Origin: Planobacterium oryzisoli
GTDB taxonomy: Bacteria > Bacteroidota > Bacteroidia > Flavobacteriales > Weeksellaceae
Reading direction: 5' to 3'
Length of the DNA: 64,000 nucleotides
NCBI RefSeq assembly: GCF_015354315.1
Contig: NZ_JADKYY010000001.1
Location: 62,001 to 126,000 of the forward strand
Part shown: positions 18,677 through 48,024 of the stretch, piece by piece
Numbering within the stretch: the stretch's first letter is position 1
How the letters are laid out: every line of letters begins with the position of its first letter
The notes under the pieces: generated by a model
What the model saw: the letters and a program-made list of their open reading frames with translations, nothing else
The model's database searches: none
Told to the model about the DNA's origin: nothing
Position numbers and translations under genes: made by a program

Positions 18677-19144
18677 TTATTTTAAGCCAAAGTACGACTC
18701 GATATACCGCTGTAGTGCCATATCGGGTGAGGTTTTGTACCATTTAAGTATATGGTTTTTGTCTGCTTCCATCTCCTTGTAGTACCCAAGCACGCGGGGA
18801 GCCTTCTCCTGGGAGATATACCGCATTAGCCTGATTTCCACATTGGAAGGATCTTTGCGCACTGCGGCACTCATCTGTTCTTTTCCGTTTTTAAAATGTT
18901 TGTATTTATTAAGGACATTGGCGTCGTGTTTGGCCATAAAGAAATAACCCACCGCCAAAAAACTCTGGTAGATCGGTAGCTTGGTTTTATTGTAACCTGC
19001 CATGGATCGCGCAATAAGCTGCTTTCCCGCGGCCGCGGATTCTTCGCCCTGTTTAAGATAACCACGAAGCTCGGGAATTGTTTGACTTTGGCTGAGCATA
19101 GCTACAGATAATAGGATGAAAGTAAAAAATTTCTTCATAATCAT
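18677..19144 (-). CDS. Secreted conserved hypothetical protein
   Basis: 155 residues with an N-terminal signal peptide (FFTFILLSVAMLSQSQ, cleavage near 21). The mature part is alpha-helical and basic, with a TPR-like look (AVGYFFMAKHDANVLNKY; AVRKDPSNVEIRLMRYI). I do not recognise a characterised family. It lies 23 bp downstream of ribA on the same strand, so it may share its transcript; two in-frame start ATGs are 2 codons apart. Confidence 0.65.
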   Translation of the reverse strand: MIMKKFFTFILLSVAMLSQSQTIPELRGYLKQGEESAAAGKQLIARSMAGYNKTKLPIYQSFLAVGYFFMAKHDANVLNKYKHFKNGKEQMSAAVRKDPSNVEIRLMRYISQEKAPRVLGYYKEMEADKNHILKWYKTSPDMALQRYIESYFGLK

Positions 19145-19167: not shown

Positions 19168-19791
19168 TTAAACCACTTCCTTTAATAAGTGTCCCATTTG
19201 CTTCTTTTTTACACTAAGGTATCCCTCACTGTGTTTATTGGCTTTTATTTCTAAGGGTATGCGGTTCATTAGGGAAATAGTACTACGTTCAAATATGCGC
19301 ATTTTCTCCGGGTTGTTGGTGAGCAGATTTACTTTTTTTATGCCCAAGAGTTCAAGCATGGTGATCCCAATCGTAAAATCCCTATTATCGATCGGAAGTC
19401 CCAGATGTAAATTGGCCTCAATGGTATCTAAGCCTTGCTGCTGCAATTGGTAGGCGCGTATTTTATTGATAAGTCCAATGCCTCTTCCTTCTTGTCTAAG
19501 GTAGATTAGTACGCCTCCGTGTTTTTGGAAATACGCCATCGCCTCATCAAGTTGTGCACCGCATTCGCACTTGCTGGAATGGAAGATCTCTCCCGTAACG
19601 CACTCGGAGTGAAAACGCACATTCACAGTTGCATTCAAATCGGTGCCTTTAGCCACTAAGGCGAGATGAGGCATCCAGTTCTCGTCTGTTGCGGAGAAAG
19701 CAAGCATTTCAAAATCGCCAAAATCTGTAGGTAGGTAGGACTTAGCCTGAATTTTTAATGGTATTAACGTAGGTTGTGGTATAGTTATCAT
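19168..19791 (-). CDS. ribA: GTP cyclohydrolase II
   Basis: First step of riboflavin synthesis: GTP to 2,5-diamino-6-ribosylamino-pyrimidinone phosphate, formate and pyrophosphate. 207 residues, stand-alone RibA without the DHBP synthase half. Zinc ligands Cys64, Cys75 and Cys77 (SECVTGEIFHSSKCECG) and the RQEGRGIGL active-site loop (99-107) are present. Many flavobacteria make riboflavin with a fused RibBA, so a stand-alone RibA placed divergently from a TetR gene suggests a conditionally expressed second enzyme; whether a ribBA exists elsewhere is not visible here. Confidence 0.93.
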   Translation of the reverse strand: MITIPQPTLIPLKIQAKSYLPTDFGDFEMLAFSATDENWMPHLALVAKGTDLNATVNVRFHSECVTGEIFHSSKCECGAQLDEAMAYFQKHGGVLIYLRQEGRGIGLINKIRAYQLQQQGLDTIEANLHLGLPIDNRDFTIGITMLELLGIKKVNLLTNNPEKMRIFERSTISLMNRIPLEIKANKHSEGYLSVKKKQMGHLLKEVV

Positions 19792-19811
19792 TTTAAATTG
19801 GTTTTATTTGG

Positions 19812-19836
19812 TACAAATATATACTAATTATTTGTA
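19812..19836. promoter_or_regulatory. Inverted repeat over divergent ribA/tetR promoters (putative TetR operator)
   Basis: TACAAATA (19812-19819) and TATTTGTA (19829-19836) form an 8-bp inverted repeat with a 9-nt spacer. It overlaps a minus-strand -7 box TATATTTG (complement of 19814-19821) for ribA and abuts the plus-strand TATATTTG at 19835-19842 for tetR. A dimeric repressor bound here would block both promoters. That the adjacent TetR protein is the binder is inferred from position. Confidence 0.55.
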
Positions 19837-19842
19837 TATTTG
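19835..19842 (+). promoter_or_regulatory. -7 promoter box of the tetR operon
   Basis: TATATTTG fits TAnnTTTG exactly; TTTGG at 19807-19811 is a possible -33 element. Predicted leader about 25 nt. Confidence 0.5.
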
Positions 19843-19871
19843 TATAAAATAATACTAAATAATACAATACA

Positions 19872-20516
19872 ATGATACCAAAACAAGAAAGAGCTGAGCT
19901 TCTCAAATCCTATAGTACCTATGTACTAGACCATGGGAAAAGGCCCGACAATGTCTATCAATTCACAAAGTCCATAGCAATGGAGGAGAATATGTTCTAT
20001 ACATTTTATGCCTCCTTTGCGAGTTTAGAGGCCGATTACCTACAGGTCCTTTTTGAGCGCTCGGTAGAGGTATGCAGCTCCACCACCTCCTATCAAAACT
20101 ACGCGGTAAAGGAATCCTTATTAGATCTGTACTATATCTTTTTTGAAAACATGGCACTAAACAGGAGCTTTATCCTCTATTTACTCCAAGGTCCACCCCA
20201 TCAGAGACTTATGGTTCTTGGAAATTTAAAAAAGCCCTTTTTAACCTTTCTAAAAGGTCTGGCGTTCGGAAGTCTTCGCGTAGAGGGTTCGAAAACGCTC
20301 CAACGCTACTTAGAGAAGGGACGTTATGAAGCACTTTGGCTCCATTTTGTCTCTGCAGTGGAGTTTTGGATGAAGGATAATTCTGCGGATTTCGTCGATA
20401 CGGATATTTATATCGAAAAATCGCTCGATACTGCCAGTGCAGTACTAGAAAACCCCGCAGCAAAGAAGGTGGTGGATTTTGGAAAATTTATGTTTCACAA
20501 GAACAAAATGTGGTAA
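19872..20516 (+). CDS. TetR-like transcriptional regulator
   Basis: 214 residues, all-helical. The N-terminal 50 residues (KQERAELLKSYSTYVLDHGK...VYQFTKSIAMEENMFYTFY) resemble a degenerate TetR helix-turn-helix of the sort usually annotated as TetR C-terminal-domain proteins in flavobacteria; the rest fits a ligand-binding helical bundle. It heads a compact operon (next gene 1 bp downstream) and faces ribA across a shared operator-like inverted repeat, so it probably represses both. The ligand is unknown. Confidence 0.7.
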   Translation: MIPKQERAELLKSYSTYVLDHGKRPDNVYQFTKSIAMEENMFYTFYASFASLEADYLQVLFERSVEVCSSTTSYQNYAVKESLLDLYYIFFENMALNRSFILYLLQGPPHQRLMVLGNLKKPFLTFLKGLAFGSLRVEGSKTLQRYLEKGRYEALWLHFVSAVEFWMKDNSADFVDTDIYIEKSLDTASAVLENPAAKKVVDFGKFMFHKNKMW

Positions 20517-20517
20517 A

Positions 20518-21855
20518 ATGAAAACAGTAGATTCAATACCTGTCTCCAAAGCCGCACGCACTGGTACCCTTTTGAAAGCCGGCGCAAAAGTGGGAGTCAA
20601 CTATCTGCGCTACTATGGAGATAGAGTACTAGGAGACAAGGATCAGGCGCAGGAGAAGTTGGAGCGTAGTAACGCAAAGGATATATATAAAAGTCTGGAA
20701 ACCATGAAAGGTTCTGGTCTTAAGGTGGCGCAAATGCTAAGTATGGAGAAAACGCTCCTACCCCAAGCGTATGTGGAGCAGTTTTCCCTCTCCCAGTTTT
20801 CTGTGCCTCCCCTTTCTATTGCGCTAGTTAGAAAGACCTTTCGCAAAGACCTTGGAAGTAATCCTGAAGAACTTTTCGACTCCTTTGCCAGTGACGCACT
20901 TTTTGCCGCAAGCATTGGACAGGTGCACCGTGCAGAGAAGAACGACCATACCTATGCGGTGAAAATCCAGTACCCGGGCGTGCGTGATTCGGTGTCTTCT
21001 GACTTGCAGTTGCTGCGTCCTTTCGCACTACGTATCCTAGGACTTCCGGAAAAAGGTTCTGAAATTTATTTTAGTGAAGTAGAGCAGAAGTTACTCGAGG
21101 AGACGGATTATGCCTTGGAGTGTATGCAGAGTCAGTCCATAGCCGCTGCTTGCAGTCATATTCCAGGATTGCGCTTTCCTAAATACTATCCGGAGCTCTC
21201 CAGTCCACGTATCTTAACTATGGACTTTATGCAAGGACAGCATATCTCGCAGTTTGTAGACGATAGGGCTAATGAACCCCTGCGGCAGCGTGTGGCCCAG
21301 TCCCTATGGGACTTTTATATGTACCAGTTCCATGTGCTTCGAAAGGTGCATGCCGATCCCCATCCCGGTAATTTTATAGTTTCTTCGGAAGGTCAGTTGC
21401 AACCAATCGATTTTGGATGTATGAAAGAACTTCCGGATGCATTTTATAGGCCTTATTTTTCATTGGTGCGGCCGGAAATCATAGAAGACGAAAGAAAATT
21501 CAATAATGCGCTGTACGCTCTTGAGATTTTGCGTACGGAAGATTCTGCAGAAGAAACTGCATTTTTTACCCAGCTATTTAAAGAAATACTCGTACTTATA
21601 ACCCAACCTTTTTCTCAAAGCACATTTGATTTTTCCTCTAAAGAGTTTATGCACAAATTAACCACTATCGGTGCAAGGTATGCTAAGATGAAAGAGCTAC
21701 GTTCCTACAATACCAACAGAGGTTCCAAGCATTTTATTTATATGAACCGTACACTGTTTGGTTTGTTTCAGCTTATGCACCAAATTAGCACCGGTCCCAT
21801 TCTGGTAGAGCGTTACAAGAATTTTACTAATCCAACGCATACGGTGGCAAACTAA
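20518..21855 (+). CDS. ABC1/UbiB-family atypical kinase
   Basis: 445 residues of the UbiB/COQ8 protein-kinase-like family. Motifs in order: KxGQ-like KVAQ at 69-72 (Gly replaced by Ala), Ala-rich loop AASIGQVHRA from 130, Lys149 in AVKIQYPG, catalytic HADPHPGN with Asp280 and Asn285, and DFG at 298-300. Start ATG overlaps the end of tetR by context (1-bp gap). UbiB proteins support quinone biosynthesis or lipid-soluble isoprenoids; here the neighbours (tetR, marR, SDR) suggest a regulated stress role rather than housekeeping ubiquinone synthesis, since these bacteria use menaquinone. Confidence 0.9.
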   Translation: MKTVDSIPVSKAARTGTLLKAGAKVGVNYLRYYGDRVLGDKDQAQEKLERSNAKDIYKSLETMKGSGLKVAQMLSMEKTLLPQAYVEQFSLSQFSVPPLSIALVRKTFRKDLGSNPEELFDSFASDALFAASIGQVHRAEKNDHTYAVKIQYPGVRDSVSSDLQLLRPFALRILGLPEKGSEIYFSEVEQKLLEETDYALECMQSQSIAAACSHIPGLRFPKYYPELSSPRILTMDFMQGQHISQFVDDRANEPLRQRVAQSLWDFYMYQFHVLRKVHADPHPGNFIVSSEGQLQPIDFGCMKELPDAFYRPYFSLVRPEIIEDERKFNNALYALEILRTEDSAEETAFFTQLFKEILVLITQPFSQSTFDFSSKEFMHKLTTIGARYAKMKELRSYNTNRGSKHFIYMNRTLFGLFQLMHQISTGPILVERYKNFTNPTHTVAN

Positions 21856-21861
21856 AGAGTT

Positions 21862-22503
21862 ATGGAGAATGAATTTTACCATGCGGCGCTTGGTACCATT
21901 ACGGATTTTCTTGCCGAGCAAAAAGCTGGAAAAGCAACTATGGAGGAGTTTCGTCAATACCTCAATCAAAAGCACTTTTTAAGTCAAAGTCCACTCAGAC
22001 TAAGTTCCAAAAGGGAAAGCGAGCTTAGTGACAACGATCTTGCAAAGCAACTTATCTTACTCAGTAGATTTTCCAAACAAATGCTCCGTAAAGCGCTTAA
22101 GGAATTTCCTGCTCTTCAAAATGAGGAGTTCACCTATCTGTACCGGTTGAAAGATGAGCCACTGCTTAGTAAGAGTGAACTCATTGAGCGTAACGGACAT
22201 GAAAAACAAACCGGTACCGAGATAATTCGTCGACTGGCACGCTCGGGACTAATCGAGGAATGTACTGATTGCAAGGACAAAAGAATCAGACGCCTTCGGT
22301 TATCACCTAAAGGCGAGTCGGAATTTGCTCAAAGTTTTAGTCAGGTCTCTAAAGCGGCTCGTCTTATGGTTGCAGTACTGGAGACAGAAGAAAAGCAAGC
22401 CTTCTTGAAGCAACTTAAAAAGCTCAATACCTTCCATTTCACTCTGTACACGAGTATGCGGAAGAATGATTTCGATTCGATTGTTAAAAAAATAGCATTA
22501 TAG
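21862..22503 (+). CDS. MarR-like winged-helix regulator
   Basis: 213 residues. The central part has the MarR layout: helices before LSKSELIERNGHEKQTGTEIIRRLARSGLIEE (recognition helix region about 110-140), then a wing DCKDKRIRRLRLSPKGES. This KDKR...L...G pattern is typical of the beta-wing. It lacks a redox-Cys pattern beyond CTDC before the wing, which could sense thiol stress. Third gene of the tetR operon (6-bp gap before, 1-bp gap after). Confidence 0.8.
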   Translation: MENEFYHAALGTITDFLAEQKAGKATMEEFRQYLNQKHFLSQSPLRLSSKRESELSDNDLAKQLILLSRFSKQMLRKALKEFPALQNEEFTYLYRLKDEPLLSKSELIERNGHEKQTGTEIIRRLARSGLIEECTDCKDKRIRRLRLSPKGESEFAQSFSQVSKAARLMVAVLETEEKQAFLKQLKKLNTFHFTLYTSMRKNDFDSIVKKIAL

Positions 22504-22504
22504 T

Positions 22505-23191
22505 ATGGCAAATTATTTAGTAATAGGTGGAGGCAGTGGTTTCGGTAAAGCGATAGCCAAGGACTTACTATCTAATCACAACGTATGGGCAACGTACCAC
22601 ACCACGCAGCTGGACTTTACACCTACCCATATGCAGCGCCTCAATGTATTGGATGAGGAGTTAACTATGGAACTACCCCAAGTGCTTGATGGGTTGGTTT
22701 ATGCGGTAGGAAACATTCCTCTCGGTGGGTTTCACAGAAGTAGTCCAGAGGATTTTTTAAAGGATTATTCGCTCCAAGTGCTGGGTGCGATAAAGGTGCT
22801 GCAAAGGGCTCTGCCGGCTTTAAAACGTTCAGAAAATCCTTCCGTAGTACTTTTCTCAAGCGTAGCGGGGAAAAAAGGTTATGGGTTTCACTCGGTTGTG
22901 TCCACTCATAAAGCAGCTTTGGAAGGCCTGGTGCGTTCCCTGGCGGCAGAATTCGCGCCCCGTATTCGTTTTAACTGCATTGCCCCAGGACTTAGCGAAA
23001 CTCCTTTGGCGTCCAGGTTACTTGACAGTCCAGAAAAGAAAGAGAAAATGGCCCAGCGTAATCCCATGAAAAGGATTGGTTCAAGCAAGGATGCTTCCTC
23101 ATTGTGCCGGTTTCTTTTAAGCGAAGAAGCATCATGGATCACAGGCCAGTGCATTGCACTCGATGGAGGGGAGTCCACTTTAGGAATATAA
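22505..23191 (+). CDS. Short-chain dehydrogenase-like protein lacking the catalytic Tyr
   Basis: 228 residues with a Rossmann N-terminus (VIGGGSGFGKAIAKD, cofactor loop 8-14) and the C-terminal SDR pattern (WITGQCIALDGG). The Ser of the triad is present (VLFSSVAG, 118-119), and Lys136 sits in STHKAALEGL, but the position four residues before the lysine is Val132 instead of Tyr. HS at 129-130 may replace it. From memory, similar flavobacterial proteins share an FHSxV...K pattern, so this may be a family trait. Last gene of the tetR-ABC1-marR operon. Substrate unknown. Confidence 0.85.
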   Translation: MANYLVIGGGSGFGKAIAKDLLSNHNVWATYHTTQLDFTPTHMQRLNVLDEELTMELPQVLDGLVYAVGNIPLGGFHRSSPEDFLKDYSLQVLGAIKVLQRALPALKRSENPSVVLFSSVAGKKGYGFHSVVSTHKAALEGLVRSLAAEFAPRIRFNCIAPGLSETPLASRLLDSPEKKEKMAQRNPMKRIGSSKDASSLCRFLLSEEASWITGQCIALDGGESTLGI

Positions 23192-46735: not shown

Positions 46736-46761
46736 TAGATACTTAAGCAAAAAAATTTACT

Positions 46762-48024
46762 ATGAATAATATTATTAGAAAAACGGCATTTCTCATTTTA
46801 CTACTGTCAATAGTCGTTGTCAAAGCCCAATTGTATCCTTCAGGTCTTTCAACAGGACGAATGGTTGTGGATAGCAAAGAACTTCCAGTTCAGATTTTTT
46901 CCACTACGGATATACCTGCTTTTATTGATTTTGCACAAAAAGAACATTCCAATTCGGTATTGGTGATTCTGAACGATGTCGTGAAGGCTTATGCACCAGG
47001 CGAGGTATTCACGACCTATACCAGTAACGGGTACCAACTGTTAGATGATCGTATGCAAGTGCTGCCTGCAGCAAATGCAAGTGCTCCGCAAACTGTTAAA
47101 TACCTGTACCACCCTAGCGGTCCTGCGGAGGTTATAACTCCTGATAAGACTGCTGAACTACGTACGCCCTTTACTATTTGGGATCCTTCCACTGGCATTA
47201 ACCTTGGTCCTATCACACTACATTACTATAGTCTAATGTTCATTCTAGCTTTTGGTCTAGGTTATTTCCTTATGTCCAAGATCTTTCAGCGCGATAGGGT
47301 CCATCAAAAATACCTCGAACCATTGTTTACATGGACCCTGTTGGGTACAATACTAGGCGCAAGACTAGGCCATGTGATTTTTTATCAGCCGGAATTATTC
47401 AAGCAGGACTTTCTTTCGGTTTTTCTACCGATCCAGACGCAGCCCGAATTTAAATTCACCGGCTTTTCAGGTTTGGCAAGTCACGGTGCCGCAATCGCAC
47501 TGATTTTTACTACGCTTTATTACGCCTACAAAATCATTGGCAAGAATCCTTTTTGGGTATACGACCGTATAGGTATTGTGGTGGCTTTGGGAGGCGCATT
47601 CGTACGAATAGGGAATTTTTTCAATTCGGAGATTATTGGTAAACCCGTACACCAAGACTCACCTTTAGCAGTCCTTTTTCCGCAGATGAGTAGCGAATAC
47701 GGGTTAACGGTCCCACGATATCCCACACAACTACTCGAAGCAGGAGGGTATTTCTTGCTATTTATAGCTCTATGGTTCTTATATAGATATACCAACAAAA
47801 AGTATCAGCAAGGGTGGCTGTTCGGCCTGTTTTTTATTGTACTTTGGTCTATTCGTTTGTTAGTAGAATTTTTAAAGGAACCTCAGGGAGAAGAATTTAT
47901 AGGATTTCTCGGACTCAATACAGGTCAGGTTCTGTCCTTGCCATTTATAGTAGCCGGGGTTATTATCATGGTTACATCCAAAAATCGGAAGATTTCGCCA
48001 GAAGAGAATTCCAAGCCGGAATAA
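46762..48024 (+). CDS. lgt: Prolipoprotein diacylglyceryl transferase with secreted N-terminal domain
   Basis: 420 residues; typical Lgt is about 260-300. The C-terminal 280 residues are a normal Lgt in the inner membrane: GARLGHVIFYQPE, FSGLASHGAAIALIF, and the signature GAFVRIGNFFNSEIIG. It transfers diacylglycerol from phosphatidylglycerol to the lipobox Cys. Residues 1-140 are an extra region with a signal-peptide-like start (FLILLLSIVVVKAQ) and a soluble beta-rich domain ending YHPSGPAEVITPDKTAELRTPF, which should face the periplasm. The extension is probably lineage-specific; its role is unknown. Confidence 0.93.
   Translation: MNNIIRKTAFLILLLSIVVVKAQLYPSGLSTGRMVVDSKELPVQIFSTTDIPAFIDFAQKEHSNSVLVILNDVVKAYAPGEVFTTYTSNGYQLLDDRMQVLPAANASAPQTVKYLYHPSGPAEVITPDKTAELRTPFTIWDPSTGINLGPITLHYYSLMFILAFGLGYFLMSKIFQRDRVHQKYLEPLFTWTLLGTILGARLGHVIFYQPELFKQDFLSVFLPIQTQPEFKFTGFSGLASHGAAIALIFTTLYYAYKIIGKNPFWVYDRIGIVVALGGAFVRIGNFFNSEIIGKPVHQDSPLAVLFPQMSSEYGLTVPRYPTQLLEAGGYFLLFIALWFLYRYTNKKYQQGWLFGLFFIVLWSIRLLVEFLKEPQGEEFIGFLGLNTGQVLSLPFIVAGVIIMVTSKNRKISPEENSKPE

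Follow-up and report, generated by a model that had tools for sequence, protein, structure and literature searches.

The locus considered here occupies positions 19168 to 23191 of a 64,000-nucleotide stretch (the window) of Planobacterium oryzisoli (Bacteroidota, Weeksellaceae; contig NZ_JADKYY010000001.1, positions 62,001 to 126,000), where ribA stands back to back with four genes for a TetR-fold protein, an ABC1/UbiB-family kinase, a MarR regulator and a short-chain dehydrogenase/reductase (SDR). Judged from sequence comparison, the locus is probably a piece that has become separated from a photoprotection regulon, a set of genes that seems to guard many flavobacteria from damage by light, and contains a putative lipid-handling pair that resembles COQ9 and COQ8. 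Its membership in one regulon with a carotenoid (crt) and photolyase operon elsewhere in the genome appears highly likely. An earlier note on this DNA had proposed a candidate stress module, as a reduced version of flavobacterial clusters that carry photolyase genes; a rearranged light- or oxidative-stress module stands, while the photolyase-free reduced version gives way to a detached piece of a regulon.

All five open reading frames (ORFs) described in that note were confirmed in place, with gaps of 1, 6 and 1 bp between the packed plus-strand genes and a divergent gap of 80 bp between ribA and the TetR-like gene. The gene names are backed by Pfam and NCBIfam, with the exception of the TetR-like protein (19872..20516, plus strand), which matches TetR_C_23 only (E 4.7e-25). 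On the minus strand, ribA (19168..19791) encodes GTP cyclohydrolase II, matching GTP_cyclohydro2 with E 1.5e-54 and the equivalog TIGR00505 with 232 bits, above the cut-off of 205.85. The ABC1 kinase, a relative of COQ8 (20518..21855, plus strand; ABC1 E 2e-51), is read from the ATG start at 20518, as a TTG start at 20479 would overlap the TetR-like gene. It is followed by the MarR gene (21862..22503, plus strand; MarR_2 E 1.8e-7), whose product has an extra N-terminal region of ~75 residues, and by the SDR gene (22505..23191, plus strand; adh_short_C2 E 3e-37), of the kind present in the photolyase clusters of relatives. Downstream of ribA lies up155 (18677..19144, minus strand), a small protein with a signal-like N-terminal stretch and no Pfam family.

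The TetR-like and ABC1 genes travel together. Of 149 relatives, 33 have a match to the ABC1 protein, which in two of them is a generic ABC1 protein with 31% identity; the TetR-like protein was detected in exactly the other 31, a co-occurrence with ABC1 of 31/31 genomes. Neighbours were clustered over 112 loci, including 80 further named loci, and in 109 of these the TetR-like gene could be paired with an ABC1 gene, the median gap being 3 bp. Among the closest relatives (L034, L036, L037, L062 and L063) the genes form a single divergent cluster, with SRPBCC, lycopene cyclase, CrtZ, up155, CrtB, CrtI and RibA on one strand and TetR-like, ABC1, photolyase, DPRP-type photolyase, DUF2805, SDR, MarR and a further photolyase on the other. 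The likeness to flavobacterial photolyase clusters drawn in the earlier note is thus borne out, since relatives hold the same genes in one cluster with photolyases, the crt operon and DUF2805. In six relatives ribA lies between crtI and the TetR-like gene, and photolyase or crt genes adjoin the pair in 49 of the 110 loci other than the window. The window retains up155, RibA, TetR-like, ABC1, MarR and SDR of the linked cluster. Gene content, its conservation and the pairing are direct observations, as are the palindromes shared between promoters that are described below, and the arrangement is, by the pairing and by the recurrence of RibA, MarR and SDR beside the pair in relatives, more than chance.

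Neither photolyase nor crt genes were found within the window locus. The absence of a photolyase holds for the neighbourhood and fails for the genome: a photolyase and a phytoene synthase are encoded at C1:278-282k, 195 kb from the window locus, in an operon (C1:278-284k) that comprises MarR2, CrtI, CrtB, SRPBCC, CrtZ, CrtY (lycopene cyclase) and the photolyase and carries the same predicted operator. A genome devoid of photolyase and carotenoid genes was therefore rejected as an explanation, both being present at C1:278-284k.

The operator in question is an 18-bp palindrome, TAGTA-N8-TACTA, located in the promoters of linked clusters and in both loci of this genome, with two copies in the gap between ribA and the TetR-like gene and two upstream of MarR2. 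In the window, predicted MarR operator 1 (TGGTACAAATATATACTA; 19809..19826, no strand) overlies the -7 box of the ribA promoter (TATATTTG on the minus strand), and predicted operator 2 (TTGTATAAAATAATACTA; 19840..19857, no strand) lies where the TetR-like operon begins, at a distance of 31 bp from operator 1. As the training sites of the operator matrix were picked by eye, the tests on left-out sequences are the ones that count. With a matrix built from other genomes only, the site at 19840 ranked second and that at 19809 third over the whole 64 kb; in the 20-kb crt region, the two top-scoring sites lay upstream of MarR2. The left-out loci L065, L163, L167, L173 and L174 likewise carry the palindrome near MarR, and L065 has two sites 31 bp apart, as in the window. 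A whole-genome pattern search with at most one mismatch returned four places, two of which are the promoters in the ribA/TetR-like gap and of MarR2; the pattern had been drawn up with both promoters already seen, so that only its rarity is informative.

The palindrome follows MarR. The motif score was high in the 17 loci with MarR and low in the 92 without (p 1.6e-8), some training sites being among the MarR loci. Since the palindrome also occurs at loci that have MarR and no TetR-like gene (L179-L182, some of whose sites were used in training), MarR, and not the TetR-like protein, is the likely binder. It is proposed from these operators that the window MarR controls the window locus and, together with its paralogue MarR2, the crt/photolyase operon.

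Lineages without MarR show a second, unrelated repeat. When promoters were searched for palindromes, no TetR operator emerged that all lineages share, but the repeat TGTTTAA-N16-TTAAACA came to light; it precedes the TetR-like gene in 53/107 loci as against 9/1043 other genes. It is absent from the 17 MarR loci (0/17). In four genomes the exact repeat occurs at 2, 3, 1 and 4 sites, in each case including one at the TetR-like/ABC1 pair; no exact site was found in the genome of the window (G000), and none with the reversed control. In two of the four an exact site is also located at crtI, adjoining a MerR gene, and one genome has sites at SRPBCC and in the interval that separates nth from a peroxiredoxin gene. 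MerR proteins of this kind carry a B12-binding_2 domain, and a CarH/LitR-type regulator acting on the repeat is a reasonable guess. With the promoter repeat held in common with crtI, even at unlinked loci, the pair is predicted to be controlled jointly with carotenoid genes by two distinct systems, also where it is unlinked to them. The earlier note had regarded scattering of the genes in relatives, together with a lack of co-expression, as refuting a module. In many relatives the genes are indeed dispersed, but the TetR-like/ABC1 pair there keeps the promoter repeat common with crtI.

These unlinked loci bear on a somewhat unlikely alternative, in which the pair maintains menaquinone or membrane lipids in general, has no specific role in the response to light and adjoins light genes as stress genes cluster. 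The pair is found widely with no light gene linked to it, standing beside htpG or fabH in 28 of the 110 loci (none of them among the 49 linked to photolyase or crt genes) and in other settings in Cytophagales, and UbiB-family kinases and COQ9 are described as acting on quinone lipids (PMC7615680, PMC9774615). However, 23 of the 28 htpG/fabH loci keep the repeat shared with crtI, and a genome contains just 1-4 exact sites, which argues against this alternative.

The locus had also been credited with two regulators, which is probably not correct. The MarR gene tracks the operator, and the TetR-like protein, despite a confident TetR fold in its AlphaFold2 model (pLDDT 91.8), lacks the usual DNA-binding signature. 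TetR_N is absent from the families listed (the 25 most frequent) for 46 TetR-like members, and a genome scan with TetR_N missed the TetR-like gene, yet detected two other TetRs there. The region corresponding to the DNA-reading helix is acidic: Glu39 is invariant, positions 38 and 41 lean acidic, Glu or Asp predominates at 41 and 50, and at position 49 the Lys of FadR-type TetRs is usually replaced by Phe or Leu. The protein thus shows the TetR fold and lacks the TetR_N signature with a basic recognition region. Because the TetR_N signature is lost and the recognition helix is acidic, the TetR-like protein is probably not a DNA-binding switch and its annotation as a regulator is probably wrong.

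That it is instead an ordinary DNA-binding repressor of its own operon and of the ABC1 kinase, with MarR as a second regulator, seems distinctly unlikely. Such a role would fit the fold, the closest structure and profile matches, which include the true regulators FadR and KstR, and the first position of the gene in the operon, as is often seen with autoregulators. It is at odds with the missing TetR_N match, with the acidic recognition-helix region and its invariant Glu39, and with the promoters, which have no operator common to all TetR-like genes and carry repeats that vary by lineage and track the presence or absence of MarR.

A COQ9-like lipid-binding partner of the kinase is proposed in its place. 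COQ9 is a TetR-fold, lipid-binding protein that is not predicted to bind DNA (PMC9774615), and COQ8 (UbiB/ADCK3) is an ABC1 kinase (PMC7615680). The COQ9 model (PF08511) has the TetR-like gene as its best match in this genome, on the C-terminus (E 0.09; 13.7 bits against a cut-off of 20.5), and across 149 genomes the top six hits of the model belong to the TetR-like family and 20 of the 31 TetR-like genes are hit, all in a single register. The ABC1 kinase keeps the ABC1 domain, the Ala-rich loop, HxDPHxGN and DFG, and KxAQ replaces KxGQ; the family motif is KxAQ (once KVTQ) wherever readable in the 112-member cluster (L096 was not read), and the generic ABC1 of L064 has KLGQ. In view of the lost DNA-binding signature, the in-register COQ9 signal and the neighbouring COQ8-type kinase, a COQ9/COQ8-like lipid-handling pair is favoured as a plausible, still tentative assignment. 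More tentatively again, Bacteroidota may hold an obligate pair of a non-DNA-binding, lipid-binding TetR-fold partner and a KxAQ COQ8-like kinase, placed under light and carotenoid control via two unrelated operator systems.

The proposed mechanism starts from the rearrangement. In relatives, ribA and the crt genes face the TetR-like, ABC1, photolyase, SDR and MarR genes in one divergent cluster, which here would have been split into two pieces, and the crt and photolyase genes in use would be those of a second operon, a native one, that lies at a distance of 195 kb and has a MarR of its own. The MarR proteins would bind TAGTA-N8-TACTA in both promoter regions and hold ribA and the operon off, until light, which we infer as the signal, or an accompanying oxidative or isoprenoid change releases them. 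RibA would then raise the flavin supply, providing flavin adenine dinucleotide (FAD) for photolyase, and the SDR would add a reduction. The TetR-like protein may work with the ABC1 ATPase as COQ9 does beside COQ8, in that it would bind a membrane isoprenoid lipid, such as a carotenoid or menaquinone, and present it.

Several observations weigh against this reading. The remaining two genome sites of the palindrome (C1:134904 and C17:1399) and a window site at 46745 have no obvious light gene adjoining, and the position of the operator relative to the -7 box varies among lineages. All COQ9 matches lie below the Pfam cut-off, the best among relatives reaching 17.7 bits, and a whole-length profile search of the PDB returned FadR-type TetR regulators (E 4e-4), with COQ9 absent. 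In fold comparison, COQ9 structures (6awl, Z 13.9; 6dew, 13.8) tie with ordinary TetR regulators, and two regulators score higher. The pair also occurs in genomes without a linked light gene, and its core role could be more general.

The only same-genus genome (G001, 93% complete) has an equivalent crt operon with its own MarR and no TetR-like/ABC1 pair. MarR2 is 59% identical to its G001 counterpart, whereas the window MarR and up155 show ~50% identity to other genera as against ~30% to G001; up155 in particular is 50% identical to the crt-linked copy of L034 and only 29% to that of G001. These identities make the crt operon look native to the genus. The window locus has the appearance of a reduced version of the linked module, whether acquired or kept, in a comparison with a single same-genus genome. 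In relatives up155 regularly occurs in the crt operon, where it lies between crtB and crtZ (e.g., L034 12072-12530), and the window up155 is a probable relic of a linked crt operon. That the locus as a whole is a decaying, non-functional remnant of a horizontally acquired module, with crt and photolyase supplied elsewhere, is very unlikely. The missing pair in G001, the affinity of up155 and MarR to other genera and the lack of crt and photolyase genes in the window cluster agree with decay, but the five ORFs are intact and tightly spaced, RibA and ABC1 keep their key motifs and both predicted operators are present; moreover, one genome that is only 93% complete is insufficient to tell gain from loss.

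Among known systems, the LitR/CarH light regulons of Pseudomonas, with phrB, SDR, FAD oxidoreductase, folE and cryB (PMC9758184), are alike in the joint regulation, over small dispersed operons, of photolyase, SDR and GTP cyclohydrolase, as predicted here from operators. They differ from the present system in its predicted MarR-type regulator, in GTP cyclohydrolase II (RibA) and in the constant TetR-like/ABC1 pair; neither MarR nor ABC1 is mentioned in the Pseudomonas paper (PMC9758184). CrtR of Corynebacterium glutamicum is a MarR-type, light-dependent repressor of the crt operon that is released in vitro by isoprenoid pyrophosphates (PMC6739363, PMC5401885). It shares with the present case a MarR protein adjoining carotenoid genes and an operator at the promoter, predicted here, whereas the present MarR belongs to another subfamily with an N-terminal extension, its palindrome is of 18 bp in contrast to the TTAA required by CrtR, and its predicted target set is wider, including flavin and photolyase genes. 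The likeness to COQ8/COQ9 lies in an ABC1 atypical kinase that accompanies a TetR-fold protein without predicted DNA binding, with the C-terminal COQ9 signal in register; the differences are the bacterial two-gene operon, KxAQ for KxGQ, COQ9 matches below the cut-off, and a setting of carotenoid and photolyase genes instead of COQ genes. Nothing direct was found in the literature on a flavobacterial photolyase/crt cluster with an ABC1 kinase.

Of these results, the conserved TetR-like/ABC1 pair is the one of greatest interest. To our knowledge, the substrates of UbiB-family kinases remain unclear, in mitochondria as well. If the proposal is true, a small bacterial kinase strictly paired with a COQ9-like partner and driven from defined promoters would be a tractable model, with carotenoid colour and photosensitivity as visible output. 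The two testable operators may define light regulons in Flavobacteriales, and TetR_C_23 proteins may be misannotated as regulators.

Further observations concern the gene families and motifs. The genome (2.1 Mb) has only two ABC1 genes and three for GTP cyclohydrolase II: the window ribA, a ribA on C16 and, as the earlier note had asked to check, a separate ribBA on C14 (DHBP_synthase plus GTP_cyclohydro2). Its single PF03441 match is a classical photolyase, and the DMRL antenna idea considered for relatives, which links RibA to an Fe-S photolyase, was for this reason not invoked. In MarR-less clusters GTP cyclohydrolase I (FolE) replaces RibA (L084 16729-17298), and TGTTTAA-N16-TTAAACA also precedes FolE; FolE in the place of RibA suggests a coupling of photolyase to the supply of either pterin or flavin. 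The same repeat, found in promoters of L066-L133 (e.g., L073, L100 and L110), is a candidate light-regulon operator of Flavobacteriaceae. As to the TAGTA palindrome, a strong operator-matrix match at window positions 46745-46762, just upstream of an lgt-like gene, is probably due to chance, and an operator-like palindrome at C17:1399-1416 of G000 (L202) lies directly upstream of an integrase-type recombinase gene.

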